The notes below the pieces were generated by a model that was not told where the DNA came from, did no database searches, and saw only the letters and a program-made list of their open reading frames with translations. Positions 7,333 through 36,108 of a DNA stretch of 64,000 bases are shown here, piece by piece (the stretch's first letter is position 1; every line of letters begins with the position of its first letter). The position numbers were made by a program, and so were the translations under genes. This stretch comes from Sphingosinicellaceae bacterium (GTDB lineage: Bacteria > Pseudomonadota > Alphaproteobacteria > Sphingomonadales > Sphingomonadaceae): assembly GCA_019285715.1 (NCBI GenBank), contig CP079108.1, forward strand, positions 558,001 through 622,000, written 5' to 3'.

Positions 7333-8040
7333 ATGCGCCTTTTGATTGTGATTGTAGCCGCGGCCCTTGCCTTGCCGGCCACCGCTACCGAGGCGACGAT
7401 ACTTTTCGACTCGGGGCATACTTCGGCGGCAGCGCTCTTTCCCGACGACTACGAATATTTCCCCTGTGACGACAACGACGTCTGTACCGATGTCGAGTAT
7501 CAAAAAATCGTCGCAAGCAAGTTTCATCTTGTCACCGGCGGTCTTGTCACCGCGCTCAGTTTCGCCGTCGCGGGCGAGATTGACGGGACGAGCTATGAGA
7601 TCGTTGCAGACGAGGCGGGCAGGGTGCCGGCGGGTTTCGGCGACGGCAGCGGAGTGTGGACGAGCGCGATGGGCACGCTGGTCGCGACTTCACTGGCGGA
7701 TCCTGCTTATCCGGCGCAGGGCTTGCGCTACGATTATTCCGGCTTCGGCATCACCTTGGCGGCAGGCGACTACTGGTTCGTGGCGCATCCGCACTATCCG
7801 CACTTCGATCGTGAAATCGTCTATGCCGGGACCGGGATGAGCGCCAACGCCGAGCGGGTCGAAACGATCGTCGGCGACGGACCGAATTACGGCCCGCTCT
7901 ATGGTGCCGGTCCTCAGGTCGGCCTGCGCCTGGAAGGCATCGCAGTTGTTCCAGAACCCACGTCATGGGCGCTGATGCTGGGCGGTTTCGGCGTCGCCGG
8001 TGCCGGACTCCGCCTGCGCCGGCGTCAGACCGCCGGGTAG
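7333..8040 (+). CDS. PEPxxWA-CTERM exported protein
   Basis: 235 residues with an N-terminal signal peptide (MRLLIVIVAAALALPATA), a secreted domain of unknown fold rich in Asp, Tyr and Gly, and a C-terminal sorting signal: VVPEPTSWALMLGGFGVAGAG followed by LRLRRR. Known biology: such tails are recognised by an exosortase system, which removes the anchor and releases the protein to the envelope or outside. Two Cys in the CDDNDVC segment may form a disulfide. A Gly-rich run (ggggggag) 6-8 bases upstream serves as RBS. Its 3' end overlaps the COQ9 gene by 16 bases on the opposite strand. No exosortase is in the window. Confidence 0.88.
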   Translation: MRLLIVIVAAALALPATATEATILFDSGHTSAAALFPDDYEYFPCDDNDVCTDVEYQKIVASKFHLVTGGLVTALSFAVAGEIDGTSYEIVADEAGRVPAGFGDGSGVWTSAMGTLVATSLADPAYPAQGLRYDYSGFGITLAAGDYWFVAHPHYPHFDREIVYAGTGMSANAERVETIVGDGPNYGPLYGAGPQVGLRLEGIAVVPEPTSWALMLGGFGVAGAGLRLRRRQTAG

Positions 8041-8690
8041 CGCAGCCGCCCGAGAAAGCGTGCCGGGCTCGGGAAATGCAGGCCGGTCAGTCGTGCCTTC
8101 GTCTTCTCGAAGCGCATGATGCCGTCGATGCGGCGGTCGAGGAACGCCGGCCAGCCCTCGGAATCGTCGAGCCAGACCAGCAGTGTCGCGGAATAGACCG
8201 CCCCCAGGATCATGCGCTTGGTGTAGTGGTTGTAGTCGGTCGCGGTGTCGCCGGCGGCGCGCCACATCGTATCGGCGGTGCGCCACAAGGTCCGCGCCGC
8301 GACCGCCGGGTGCAGCGCCAGCACCGCCAGCGTCCGCCGCACGACCTCGCGTTCGCCGTCGGCCTGCTGGAGCCGGGTCGCGACCGCCAGCCGGATACGC
8401 TCGCGAATCTTGTGCCCGGACAGGTCGCCGAGGGCCGCCAGCATGCGCGCGTCGGCCAGGGCGATATACGCCTCGACCATCTGCAGCGTGCCGCCCCTGA
8501 AAGCGACGGCGGCGAGGTCGGGGTCGATCCCGGCGTCCAGCGCGCCCGCTGCGACCGACTCCTGGCTCCAGCCGTCGAAGGCGACACTGGGTAACATCGC
8601 CGCGATCAGGCGCGGGCGGAGTTCGTCGAGGGTCTCGTCCGCGGCGTCGGGGACGGCTGCGCTGGTCTCGGAGATCATGCCGTGGTTCAT
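8025..8690 (-). CDS. COQ9-family protein (ubiquinone biosynthesis)
   Basis: About 221 residues from the ATG at 8690 (another ATG at 8678). COQ9 is a lipid-binding TetR-fold protein that presents intermediates to the COQ7 hydroxylase in ubiquinone synthesis. Seen: N-terminal helical half (RPRLIAAMLPSVAFDGWSQESVAAGA), then the COQ9 C-terminal hallmark WRTADTMWRAAGDTATDYNHYTKR and VYSATLLVWLDD. The frame stays open to 8798 across an 18-bp tandem repeat, which would add repeated LLPAST-like residues; I treat that as leader, not protein. Confidence 0.9.
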   Translation of the reverse strand: MNHGMISETSAAVPDAADETLDELRPRLIAAMLPSVAFDGWSQESVAAGALDAGIDPDLAAVAFRGGTLQMVEAYIALADARMLAALGDLSGHKIRERIRLAVATRLQQADGEREVVRRTLAVLALHPAVAARTLWRTADTMWRAAGDTATDYNHYTKRMILGAVYSATLLVWLDDSEGWPAFLDRRIDGIMRFEKTKARLTGLHFPSPARFLGRLRYPAV

Positions 8691-8719
8691 AGTCGGGGGC
8701 GCGGCCCGGTGGAAGTCGC

Positions 8720-8791
8720 GCGTTGACGCGGGCCCAAGCGTTGACGCGGGTCGAAGCGTTGACGCGGGCAGAAGCGTTAACACAGGCTGGT
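8720..8791. repeat. 18-bp tandem repeat, three good copies plus one decayed
   Basis: Units gcgttgacgcgggNNNaa start at 8720, 8738 and 8756; a fourth at 8774 is degenerate (gcgttaacacagg). The last three variable bases differ per unit while the rest is constant. It lies between the divergent COQ9 and rpsU starts, so it spans their promoter region. Repeated binding sites or slippage are both possible. Confidence 0.8.
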
Positions 8792-8914
8792 CACGCACCC
8801 GGGGCTCTGCTATGGCCCCGCCCTTCGCGTTCGCCGACTCGTGGTCGACGGGCGTTCAACCCAATGACAAGCGCACGCCATGCTGAGGCGCGACGCGTGA
8901 ATGGAGTGTACGGC

Positions 8915-9121
8915 TTGCAGATCGTAGTTCGCGACAACAATGTCGACCAGGCGCTGCGCGCGCTCAAGAAGAAGCTGCAGCGCGAAGGCGTCTACCGCGA
9001 GATGAAGCTGCGCCGTCACTACGAGAAGCCGAGCGAGAAGCGCGCCCGTGAAAAGGCTGCCGCCGTCCGCCGCGCCCGCAAGCTCGAGCGCAAGCGCGCC
9101 GAGCGCGACGGCGCCAAGTAG
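8915..9121 (+). CDS. rpsU: 30S ribosomal protein S21
   Basis: Small-subunit protein needed for translation initiation. 68 residues: [20 protein letters not shown] and [16 protein letters not shown] match S21 from start to end, with a Lys/Arg-rich C-terminal helix. The family begins MQI-V-RDNNV, which places the start at the TTG at 8915; GGAG sits 8 bases before it. Upstream in-frame GTG codons would add residues no S21 has. The FKBP gene starts 5 bases after its stop. Confidence 0.95.
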
Positions 9122-9126
9122 CACCC

Positions 9127-9642
9127 ATGGCCTCGAACGCGCCGGGTGTCCGGCCGTCGTCGTACACCGGCCGCTGGATCGTCATCGGCCTCGTCGTCGC
9201 GGCGCTGGTCGGGCTGCTGGTCTGGGTCGGCACCAGGACTGCTGTCGACGCGGTTCGGCCTGCCGACATGGCTTACCTTAAGCATAACCGGGAGAAACCG
9301 GGCGTGATCACCACACCGAGCGGCCTGCAGTACGAAGTCATCACCGAGGGCAAGGGCACGCGCCCGGCGCGCACCGACACGGTCGCGGTCCAGTACGAAG
9401 GCAAGTTGATCGACGGCACCGTCTTCGATTCGAGCTACCAGCGTGGCCAGCCGGCGGTGTTCCCGCTCGACCAGGTCATCCCCGGCTGGACCGAAGGCGT
9501 CCAGCTGATGACTCCTGGGTCGAAGTACCGCTTCACCATCCCAGCGGCGCTCGGCTACGGTGCCAAGGGTGCGGGCGGCGTCATCCCGCCGAACGCGGTG
9601 CTGCTGTTCGACATCGAGTTGATCGCGATCAAGGGCAAGTAG
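9127..9642 (+). CDS. FKBP-type peptidyl-prolyl isomerase, membrane-anchored
   Basis: 171 residues. A transmembrane helix (about residues 19-36, IVIGLVVAALVGLLVWVG) anchors the protein, leaving an FKBP domain in the periplasm: TPSGLQYEVITEGKG, VQYEGKLIDGTVFDSSY, the active-site loops VIPGWTEGVQLM and IPAALGYG, and a VLLFDIELIAI end strand. It catalyses prolyl isomerisation and probably helps envelope protein folding. It starts 5 bases after rpsU and may share its transcript. Confidence 0.93.
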   Translation: MASNAPGVRPSSYTGRWIVIGLVVAALVGLLVWVGTRTAVDAVRPADMAYLKHNREKPGVITTPSGLQYEVITEGKGTRPARTDTVAVQYEGKLIDGTVFDSSYQRGQPAVFPLDQVIPGWTEGVQLMTPGSKYRFTIPAALGYGAKGAGGVIPPNAVLLFDIELIAIKGK

Positions 9643-33752: not shown

Positions 33753-34901
33753 CTACCGCCGCGCGAAGATTTCGCTCAGCGGGTTGGACGGGGCCATGCT
33801 GCCGTCGCCCTGCAGGAACGACACCAGCGGGCCACGGCGGCGGGCGAGCTCCGACTGGCCGAGGCGGGCGAGTTGGATGACCGCGCAGATCACGCACCAG
33901 GCGACCAGCACGCGGTATCCTTCGGTGATCATGCCGAGCGCCAGGGCCACGGTGAGGATCAGCAGGTTCGGGTTGCGGCGCGCGAGGATCAGGCGGAAGC
34001 GCGCATCGAAGGGCCGCCAGACGAACGGGCCGAAGCCGTTCCGGAGTTCGAAGGCACCCTCGCACAGGCGGCCGACGACATAGCTCGCCATGATCAGCCC
34101 GAAACAGATCCACAGGCGCGCGTCGCCGGCGGGGGGCTCGTCGATCATCGCGCCCCACATGAACGCCCACCACCAGATCGGCGGGAAGACGATGTCGGGG
34201 ATGTGATCGAAGTAATTGCCGAATTTCGAGTAGCTGACGGTGACCCGCGCCAGCTTGCCGTCGACGGTGTCGAGGAAGGTCATGCCCCAGGCGCAGGCCA
34301 GTCCGGCGGCAAACCAGTGGGTCATCAGCAGCGGGATCGCGGCGATCGACAGCAGGGTCGACAGCGTCGTCACCATGTTCGGCGTAATGCCGAGCGCGAC
34401 GCAGGCGCGGACGACGAGCAGCGCCGGGTGCGGCCAGGCGTACTTCGTGACGAGGTCGGTGACGCCCTTGAAGCTGGCGAAGTAAAGCGCGTCCTCGGGC
34501 GCTTTCGAGCGGTCGTCCGAGCGGCCGTAGGCGAGGAATTTCTCGCGCTTCTTGAGGGTGCCGCTGGCGAAGTCGAAGCTGCCCGCGACCACGACGGGGC
34601 AGGGTGGGGCGGCGGGTAAGGTGCCGCTGGCGAAGCTGTCGCGCAGGCCGTCGACCATCGCCGGGTCGACCCAGCCGAGCAGCGGGCGGCCCTTCGCATC
34701 GGTGACCAGCAGCGGCTCGCCGGCCAGTAAATGGGCGAGGGCGGGAGTGTCGACGATCGCATCGCTGGCGACCATGAGCACGCGGCTGGCGGCGGGCTTG
34801 AGACGGGCAAGCTGGCGGTCGAGTCGGGTCGCGGGCGACAGGCCGAAGGTCGTCGCGGGGGTGCCGGGGTAGTCGATGCGGACGACTGCGGTTGCGCTCA
34901 T
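33753..34901 (-). CDS. CDP-alcohol phosphatidyltransferase with degenerate nucleotidyltransferase-like N-domain
   Basis: 382 residues. The C-terminal membrane domain carries the full CDP-alcohol motif, DTVDGKLAR then eight residues then GNYFDHIPD (all four Asp present), so it should transfer a phospho-alcohol from a CDP-activated donor. The N-terminal 140 residues look like a decayed nucleotidyltransferase (SPATRLDRQLARLKPA, VTDAKGRPLLGW) without the Gly-rich NTP site. The linker FASFKGVTDLVTKYAWPHPALL...GITPNMVT resembles bifunctional IPCT/DIPPS proteins. An intact cytidylyltransferase gene is two genes away. Acceptor unknown. Confidence 0.88.
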   Translation of the reverse strand: MSATAVVRIDYPGTPATTFGLSPATRLDRQLARLKPAASRVLMVASDAIVDTPALAHLLAGEPLLVTDAKGRPLLGWVDPAMVDGLRDSFASGTLPAAPPCPVVVAGSFDFASGTLKKREKFLAYGRSDDRSKAPEDALYFASFKGVTDLVTKYAWPHPALLVVRACVALGITPNMVTTLSTLLSIAAIPLLMTHWFAAGLACAWGMTFLDTVDGKLARVTVSYSKFGNYFDHIPDIVFPPIWWWAFMWGAMIDEPPAGDARLWICFGLIMASYVVGRLCEGAFELRNGFGPFVWRPFDARFRLILARRNPNLLILTVALALGMITEGYRVLVAWCVICAVIQLARLGQSELARRRGPLVSFLQGDGSMAPSNPLSEIFARR

Positions 34902-34927
34902 GCCGCGCCTCGGGCAGCGTCGGTGGC

Positions 34928-35374
34928 ATGCATGCGACACTCGCCAAGTTCGGCTACGGCCCCGGCACGGTCTTCGAGGACGAGCATTGGGCGGTCGTGG
35001 TTCGTGCCGCTCAGCCGACGCTCGGCGCGGTCGTGCTGATCGCCAAGCGCGAGGTCGAGGCGTTTGGCGACCTGACCCCCGACGAAGGCGCGGCGCTGCC
35101 GGCGATGGCGGCGCGGATCGCGCTGGCGCAGGCTGGTGTCTCGCAGCCGCAGAGGGTCAACTACCTGATGTTGATGATGGTCGACCGCCACGTCCATTTT
35201 CACGTCATTCCGCGCTACGAGCAGGCGCGCGCATGGCGCGGGCGCAGCTTTCCCGATGCCGGCTGGCCGGGGGTGCCCGAACTCGGCGCGGCGGTGACGC
35301 TCGATGCGGACGGCGTGGCTCAGATGGTTCGCGACCTGCGCGACGCGCTGAACGGCACCACGCTCGGGGGCTGA
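34928..35374 (+). CDS. HIT-family nucleotide hydrolase/transferase
   Basis: 148 residues. The catalytic triad region is RHVHFHVIPRY (H-x-H-x-H), with the family DLTPDEGAALPAM helix before it. HIT enzymes act on phosphoanhydride bonds such as Ap4A or nucleoside phosphoramidates. ATG at 34928; divergent from the CDP-alcohol gene with 26 bases between starts. Its last 55 bases overlap the end of the convergent nucleotidyltransferase gene. No metal- or substrate-specific features visible. Confidence 0.9.
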   Translation: MHATLAKFGYGPGTVFEDEHWAVVVRAAQPTLGAVVLIAKREVEAFGDLTPDEGAALPAMAARIALAQAGVSQPQRVNYLMLMMVDRHVHFHVIPRYEQARAWRGRSFPDAGWPGVPELGAAVTLDADGVAQMVRDLRDALNGTTLGG

Positions 35375-36108
35375 GCCCAGGTGGCGGTCGACCATGACGC
35401 GGTCAGCGCACGCGCCCCGGGCAGATCGGCCGGGAAGTCGACCTCGGCGGATTCGTGGCCGGTGACGTCGGTCGCGCCGACGACTCCGGTGATCGCCAGT
35501 TCCGCCACGGCGCTGAGGTAGTAGTTGCCGGTGCCGCCCTCGCGCGCGATGACGCGGTCGACCATCGCGGCGAAGGTCGCGCCGCCCGTGCCCTTCATCA
35601 CCAGCATGCCGATCGACTCGGCGTCGGTCTCGCCGGGGGGCAGCAGCTTCGACACCGCCGTAACGCGGCCGGCGGCGAGCGTCACCTTCATGTCGTCGGC
35701 GTCGTAGGCGGGCTTGACCGCGATCGTGACGTTGACCGGAGCGGAGGCCCCGGCGATCGCCTGCGCGATCAGCTCGGGCCCGATCAGCGTGTCACCGTTG
35801 AGGACAATGGCGTCGCCCGCGGCCAGCACGCCGCGCGCCAGCCAGACCGACGAGATGTTGTCGGCGATCCGGTAGAACGGGTTGTGCAGCGTCTCGACGT
35901 TGACGTGCGCCGCCGCCAGCCGGTCGCGGACCTGCCCAGCCTCGAAGCCGGTGACCACGGTCATGCGGTCGACCCCGGCGGCGGCCAGCGCCGCCACCTG
36001 CCACTCGAGCAGGCTGCGGCCGTGGAAGTCGATCAGGCACTTCGGCGTCGTGGCGGTCAGCGGCGCGAGCCGCGACCCCTGGCCGGCGGAAAGGATGACT
36101 GCGTGCAA
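35320..36108 (-). CDS. NTP transferase, phosphocholine-cytidylyltransferase-like
   Basis: 262 residues. AVILSAGQGSRLAPLTATTPKCLIDF is the nucleotide site (GxGxRL...PK), NPFYRIADNISSVWLARGVL matches LicC-like phosphocholine cytidylyltransferases, and VLNGDTLIG holds the metal Asp. TTG at 36108 is chosen: GAAGG lies 8 bases upstream and no ATG or GTG is in frame nearby. The last 18 residues are antisense to the HIT gene and may be dispensable. With the CDP-alcohol transferase it could make and use a CDP-alcohol. Confidence 0.87.
   Translation of the reverse strand: MHAVILSAGQGSRLAPLTATTPKCLIDFHGRSLLEWQVAALAAAGVDRMTVVTGFEAGQVRDRLAAAHVNVETLHNPFYRIADNISSVWLARGVLAAGDAIVLNGDTLIGPELIAQAIAGASAPVNVTIAVKPAYDADDMKVTLAAGRVTAVSKLLPPGETDAESIGMLVMKGTGGATFAAMVDRVIAREGGTGNYYLSAVAELAITGVVGATDVTGHESAEVDFPADLPGARALTASWSTATWAQPPSVVPFSASRRSRTI

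Follow-up and report, generated by a model that had tools for sequence, protein, structure and literature searches.

Which product would come from a CDP-alcohol phosphotransferase whose fused nucleotidyltransferase-like half appears to be dead, and which is encoded next but one to a separate, live cytidylyltransferase? The genes lie in the window analyzed here, a stretch of 64,000 nucleotides covering bases 558001 to 622000 of a 4.43-Mb single-contig genome of a Sphingosinicellaceae bacterium. The original prediction saw in them a split version of a bifunctional IPCT/DIPPS enzyme, which could yield a phosphodiester, lipid, or solute of the inositol or choline type that would be new to this group. 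We consider it quite probable that the two genes and the HIT gene between them form the headgroup-extension module of the ceramide phosphoglycerate pathway, which in Caulobacter involves CpgA (CC_1159/CCNA_01217) and CpgD (CC_1152/CCNA_01210), two protein families also found in the window.

Layout of the locus

The transferase, the HIT protein and the cytidylyltransferase are all encoded by intact open reading frames in the predicted arrangement (Table 1), with the start codon of the cytidylyltransferase, a TTG, being uncertain. The HIT gene lies on the strand opposite to the cytidylyltransferase and overlaps its end by 55 bases, and the trio is therefore not one operon. The scanned flanking genes encode methyltransferases and M16 and M23 peptidases according to Pfam, with no inositol gene among the flanking genes examined. 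None of the scanned proteins reached an NCBIfam cut-off (for some proteins, among the best 25 families listed).

Table 1. Features of the trio, in window positions
Feature	Position	Strand	Evidence
CDP-alcohol phosphotransferase, CpgA-type	33753..34901	-	Intact ORF, 382 aa including Met; PF01066 E 5.4e-10
NTase-fold N-terminal domain without NTP signature	34479..34898	-	Residues 1-140 after Met; VIA-align
CDP-alcohol active-site motif DTVDGKLAR...G...D...D	34194..34271	-	Signature residues 8/8 invariant, 60/60 rows
HIT-family protein	34928..35374	+	Intact ORF; PF01230 E 2e-6
HIT motif, last two histidines	35195..35203	+	H89, H91 invariant, 28-row alignment
CpgD-type CTP:phosphoglycerate cytidylyltransferase (predicted)	35320..36108	-	Intact ORF; PF12804 E 7.7e-14, PF00483; phylogeny, key residues
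Nucleotide-binding signature AGQGSR, live cytidylyltransferase	36070..36087	-	Pattern in 24/24 rows
NGD motif, cytidylyltransferase	35791..35799	-	Placed at CpgD N110-G111-D112

A live transferase with a putatively dead N-terminal half

CDP-alcohol phosphotransferases carry the signature D-x2-D-G-x2-A-R-x8-G-x3-D-x3-D, and all eight of its residues, including the four catalytic Asp that had been predicted to be kept, are invariant across the 60 aligned rows, the window protein among them. Four arginines outside the signature (R277, R302, R307, and R308) are likewise invariant in 60/60 rows. The AlphaFold model of the transferase (pLDDT 90.6), from which we read six membrane helices, was compared over both domains with solved structures by VIA-align, giving Z 22.7 and rmsd 3.1 over 306 residues for AF2299 of Archaeoglobus (4o6m; 15% identity) and Z 20.8 and rmsd 4.5 for the bifunctional IPCT-DIPPS (4mnd). 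The latter likewise combines a nucleotidyltransferase and a CDP-alcohol transferase fold in one chain, with both halves acting on inositol compounds; unlike in IPCT-DIPPS, the fused half in the window has no nucleotide signature and the live nucleotidyltransferase is a separate, putatively CpgD-type enzyme. AF2299 shares the cytidylyltransferase-like N-domain and the six-helix phosphotransferase and differs in its reported donor, CDP-glycerol (PMC4634129; this and the other papers are cited for the passages concerned). A cytidylyltransferase-like domain on a CDP-alcohol enzyme has been described for AF2299 (PMC4634129), and with the fold match this means that the architecture of the transferase is already known. 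The idea of a split bifunctional enzyme fits the form of the transferase, whose modelled architecture matches DIPPS/AF2299-type enzymes.

Taken alone, the N-domain gives Z values of about 5 to 7 against nucleotidyltransferases, which are weak by themselves, including a middling 7.0 over 107 residues against the cytidylyltransferase 2xme, and hhalign comparison with the nucleotidyltransferase family (15 to 21%) is too weak to decide. A nucleotidyltransferase fold is accepted here because of the structural comparison, not the profile comparison. The NTP-binding signature is missing from the first 140 residues of the window transferase, and a loose GxGxR-type pattern occurs within the first 90 residues in only 2/60 rows of one alignment (A3) and 0/22 of another (A2), compared with 24/24 rows of the live cytidylyltransferase family. 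At the position resembling NGD, one Asp is retained by the window transferase, by 39/60 rows of A3, and by 1/22 rows of A2. The fold of the model together with the absent signature supports a nucleotidyltransferase half that would have lost its NTP site, in agreement with the dead domain originally proposed.

The relatives of the transferase are 33 to 40% identical to it and include Caulobacter genes that neighbor cpgB, cpgC, and spt. In the tree, the window transferase groups with that of a congener on a deep branch apart from the main clade of sphingomonad CpgA, nearest to five sphingomonad sequences (support, 90). Forcing the two into a clade with the main sphingomonad CpgA rows was not rejected (p-AU = 0.45, the tested grouping having been chosen with the tree already in view). 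No HIT gene or cpgD was found beside the five nearest transferases in the stretches fetched, one of which (L106) is incomplete; three of these five genomes were searched whole, with HIT found in 3/3 and a strong CpgD in 2/3. Only in the two genomes of the window genus was this divergent transferase lineage observed next to HIT and cpgD.

The cytidylyltransferase resembles CpgD

A live LicC-like cytidylyltransferase had been expected, and the enzyme does carry the AGQGSR signature and has the choline-phosphate cytidylyltransferase LicC (1jyk) as its best PDB sequence match, with the alignment limited to the first 107 domain residues and with DAD in LicC versus NGD in the window enzyme. No chain named CpgD occurs among the best 60 of 72 solved-structure matches to the CpgD profile; CpgD structures are published (PMC12275187, PMC13228409). 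We placed the CpgD positions given in the cited parts of those two papers via the Caulobacter segnis row, by motif and spacing, and found G111, the active-site residues R16, K26, and D112, and the glycerate contacts N90, N110, M147, K161, and S170 all kept. By comparison, the two inositol-type nucleotidyltransferases lack N110, M147, and S170. Position 88, a backbone contact, differs from CpgD, and T93 is replaced by Ser, as in 43 of the 59 others. W201 is replaced by Tyr in the window and its congener, the position being Trp in 58/59 others and Phe in one, and also Phe in four rows of a divergent cytidylyltransferase branch; W201 sits in a moving loop and is not called defining in the passages cited (PMC13228409, PMC12275187).

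Phylogeny separates 65 rows, including Caulobacter CpgD, from the two inositol-type rows with 100/100 support, in an unrooted tree of CpgD-like and two inositol-type rows that leaves out sugar and choline enzymes and poorly separates the branching near the window. Membership in an unrelated sugar pathway had been named as grounds for abandoning the pairing, and this partial phylogeny, with no sugar enzymes in it, does not refute the pairing. Caulobacter CpgD converts CTP and 2-phosphoglycerate to CDP-glycerate and gives no product with glycerol-1-phosphate (PMC12275187). From the sequence, we infer that the window cytidylyltransferase is CpgD-type, with CDP-glycerate as its predicted product. 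The retained glycerate contacts, at three of which the two inositol-type enzymes differ, speak against the inositol- or choline-type product that was first suggested.

Co-occurrence and gene neighborhoods

Of 149 genomes from the family, 44 carry the transferase (E of 1.1e-45 or better, the next best being 1e-16), and the same 44 carry the cytidylyltransferase (E of 1.8e-38 or better, the next best being 1e-12). This identical distribution agrees with the claim that the pair belongs together, and a lack of co-occurrence, which had been named as the result that would speak against it, was not found; Fisher P values for co-occurrence ignore relatedness. The two genes lie within 3 kb of each other in 31/44 genomes, 72 to 860 kb apart in 3/44, and on different contigs in 10/44, some of which are fragmented assemblies. 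The HIT subfamily (E of 4.1e-30 or better) is found in 39/149 genomes, all 39 of them within the 44, and is missing from G028, G043, G067, G112, and G123; in the first four the cytidylyltransferase forms the divergent branch (G123 was left out of the alignment). Seven of the 53 genera with multiple genomes contain two genomes that differ, with cpgA, cpgD, and HIT being present or absent together. In four loci (L094, L096, L097, and L100), from genomes without HIT, a protein of about 320 to 400 amino acids, which we take to look TagF-like, adjoins a divergent cytidylyltransferase that has Ser in place of N90; Pfam gave no match for the single member scanned.

Genes like cpgC are found in 116/149 genomes and 42/44 of the cpgA/cpgD carriers, and genes like CC_1153 in 117/149 and 43/44, respectively. 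A widespread cpgC with cpgA/cpgD in a subset is expected if cpgA/cpgD add a second phosphoglycerate. The breadth of the CC_1153-like gene does not follow from a second phosphoglycerate, with Caulobacter needing CC_1153 for CPG2. Two CpgC homologues (L101:15062-15955 and L194:8586-9497) had no NCBIfam match, and the one of them scanned against Pfam had none there.

We surveyed by tblastn the neighborhoods of the best 80 named loci by transferase profile, many of which are incomplete, and found cpgC in 65, CC_1153-like genes in 56, a metallophosphoesterase in 54, cpgB in 49, HIT in 47, cpgD in 42, and spt in 40. Among the 52 of these loci that are at least 17 kb long, 28 have HIT and cpgD, 8 HIT alone, and 6 cpgD alone. 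Three Caulobacter loci (L147, L157, and L183) hold cpgA, HIT, cpgD, cpgB, cpgC, spt, and cerR together, a layout much like the published C. crescentus region (PMC11324152). CpgA-type genes near genes resembling those for Mla lipid transport were observed in L069, L070, and L095.

The genome of the window itself carries a single locus of companion genes around 3.58 Mb, with spt-like (53% identity to Caulobacter), cerR-like (40%), acpR-like (37%), cpgC-like (39%), and cpgB-like genes, the last being the weakest at 28 to 30%, as well as aasR-, CC_1154-, and LptF/LptG-like genes; a CC_1153-like gene (40% identity) lies at 905 kb. The likeness to Caulobacter CpgA/CpgD thus comprises the kept CpgD contact residues and these companion genes, with HIT also clustered alongside in the Caulobacter loci examined. 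Unlike in Caulobacter, the trio, at 0.59 Mb, is detached from the ceramide locus, the transferase is divergent, W201 of CpgD is Tyr, and no LpxC was detected in the family (0/149 genomes; the controls included Caulobacter vibrioides, which was positive).

The HIT protein

The HIT motif is H-x-H-x-H-x-x and reads HVHFHVI in the window, the first His being Asp in the subfamily consensus. The AlphaFold model (pLDDT 94.7) has HIT proteins as its best fold matches, and PF01230 scores above its cut-off. The gene is also present in C. segnis (tblastn and genome search). In 20 further genomes searched, HIT was absent from three, all of which have CpgD, and a link between HIT loss and CpgD loss in Dongia-type genomes was accordingly dropped. 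The Dongia-type clusters L115, L127, and L138 contain two CDP-alcohol phosphotransferases each; CpgD is not in the fetched clusters but is in the genomes, and HIT was not found in the genomes.

Our search of the literature, mostly in non-subscription journals, found nothing linking the HIT gene to the CPG2 pathway, and the passages cited of the Caulobacter CPG2 work report no role for it (PMC12275187, PMC11324152, PMC13228409). Judged from its position, CC_1157 of C. crescentus, called "probably unrelated" (PMC11324152), is likely this HIT gene. The HIT protein looks like a dedicated, so far unnoticed partner of the same pathway, and our guess would be that it hydrolyzes or recycles a cytidylylated intermediate or side product.

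Proposed pathway and alternatives

In the reaction scheme that we favor, ceramide and ceramide phosphoglycerate would be supplied by distant genes of the genome that resemble spt, cerR, acpR, cpgB, and cpgC, and CpgD would make CDP-glycerate from CTP and 2-phosphoglycerate. The CpgA-type transferase would then displace CMP from CDP-glycerate and hand the phosphoglycerate to an acceptor, most likely ceramide phosphoglycerate, yielding ceramide diphosphoglycerate (CPG2), with the N-domain, which lacks the NTP signature, probably resting against the membrane part as its AF2299 counterpart does. Substrates, product, step order, and the HIT reaction are all inferred here. The CpgA step is a proposed reaction in the published work as well (PMC12275187, PMC11324152, PMC13228409); CC_1159 is a CDP-alcohol enzyme by Pfam and is required for CPG2 (PMC11324152). 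CPG2 synthesis is not a new prediction for the group, because Sphingomonas wittichii has already been predicted to be able to make CPG and CPG2 (PMC11324152), and the claim of a product not described there was too strong. The deep transferase branch, the replacement of W201 by Tyr, the detached trio, and the cpgB-like gene at 30% identity count against the CPG2 reading, as do the lack of HIT in 5/44 cpgA/cpgD genomes and 3/20 further genomes and the six-helix form discussed below.

A split IPCT/DIPPS pathway, in which the pair would make CDP-inositol and then a di-inositol phosphodiester or an inositol lipid, draws on the fold match to 4mnd and on the fact that inositol-phosphate-type synthases are the best matches of the transferase in PDB sequences and in NCBIfam, there at a score far below cut-off. 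Against it stand the residues missing from the compared inositol-type enzymes, the lack of an inositol gene among the flanking genes noted above, and a different, inositol-type CDP-alcohol enzyme beside inositol-1-phosphate synthase in the same genome (L066), which lies far from the window transferase in the tree; we hold this pathway to be extremely unlikely. A pathway to a choline, glycerol, or different polymer, resembling those of LicC, TagF, or AF2299, seems very improbable. LicC is the best PDB match of the cytidylyltransferase, AF2299, the best fold match, binds CDP-glycerol (PMC4634129), and a gene that to us looks TagF-like adjoins the nucleotidyltransferase in some relatives; however, that gene is not adjacent to the window trio, LicC has DAD and not NGD, and Caulobacter CpgD is inactive on glycerol-1-phosphate (PMC12275187). 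The inositol/choline reading was set aside on the residues, the tree, and the separate inositol-type gene. The second transferase at L066 (G000:C1:2414000-2431000, positions 7984 to 9252) has a long N-terminal part resembling a degenerate nucleotidyltransferase; a nucleotidyltransferase follows an L066-type transferase in L104 and L105, and a Wzi capsule protein is found in L104.

A different order of steps concerns the acceptor and is a variant of the CPG2 reading, so that the odds of the two overlap. CDP-glycerate and a soluble phosphoglycerate would first give a soluble glycerate phosphodiester headgroup, as in DIPPS, which would then be joined to an activated ceramide, replacing a single phosphoglycerate; we know of no such soluble intermediate. 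This order was raised because the six-helix form has been reported with soluble acceptors (PMC4634129), which, given the six helices of the model, would be in tension with a lipid acceptor. The invariant R277, R302, R307, and R308 could hold an anionic acceptor, and the CpgC domain suggests a CDP-DAG synthase (PMC11324152). Caulobacter makes CPG, but not CPG2, without CpgD (PMC12275187) or CpgA, with CC_1160 alone restoring CPG in a CC_1159/1160 mutant (PMC11324152), and the soluble order predicts this as well. We regard it as unlikely, and it is doubtful to a somewhat greater degree that HIT is an overlooked CPG2 enzyme acting on a cytidylylated intermediate together with a DIPPS-like CpgA-type enzyme making a soluble glycerate phosphodiester headgroup.

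With CPG2 kept as the preferred product, the CpgA reaction now has a structural model, with its acceptor posed as a clear alternative of lipid or soluble, and the putative HIT partner offers a concrete new gene to study. Caulobacter CPG2 supports life without lipopolysaccharide (PMC12275187). With no LpxC detected, the outer leaflet in this family must be built without lipid A, and a full CPG2 gene set in relatives lacking lipopolysaccharide genes from the outset makes life without lipopolysaccharide testable in the wild type.
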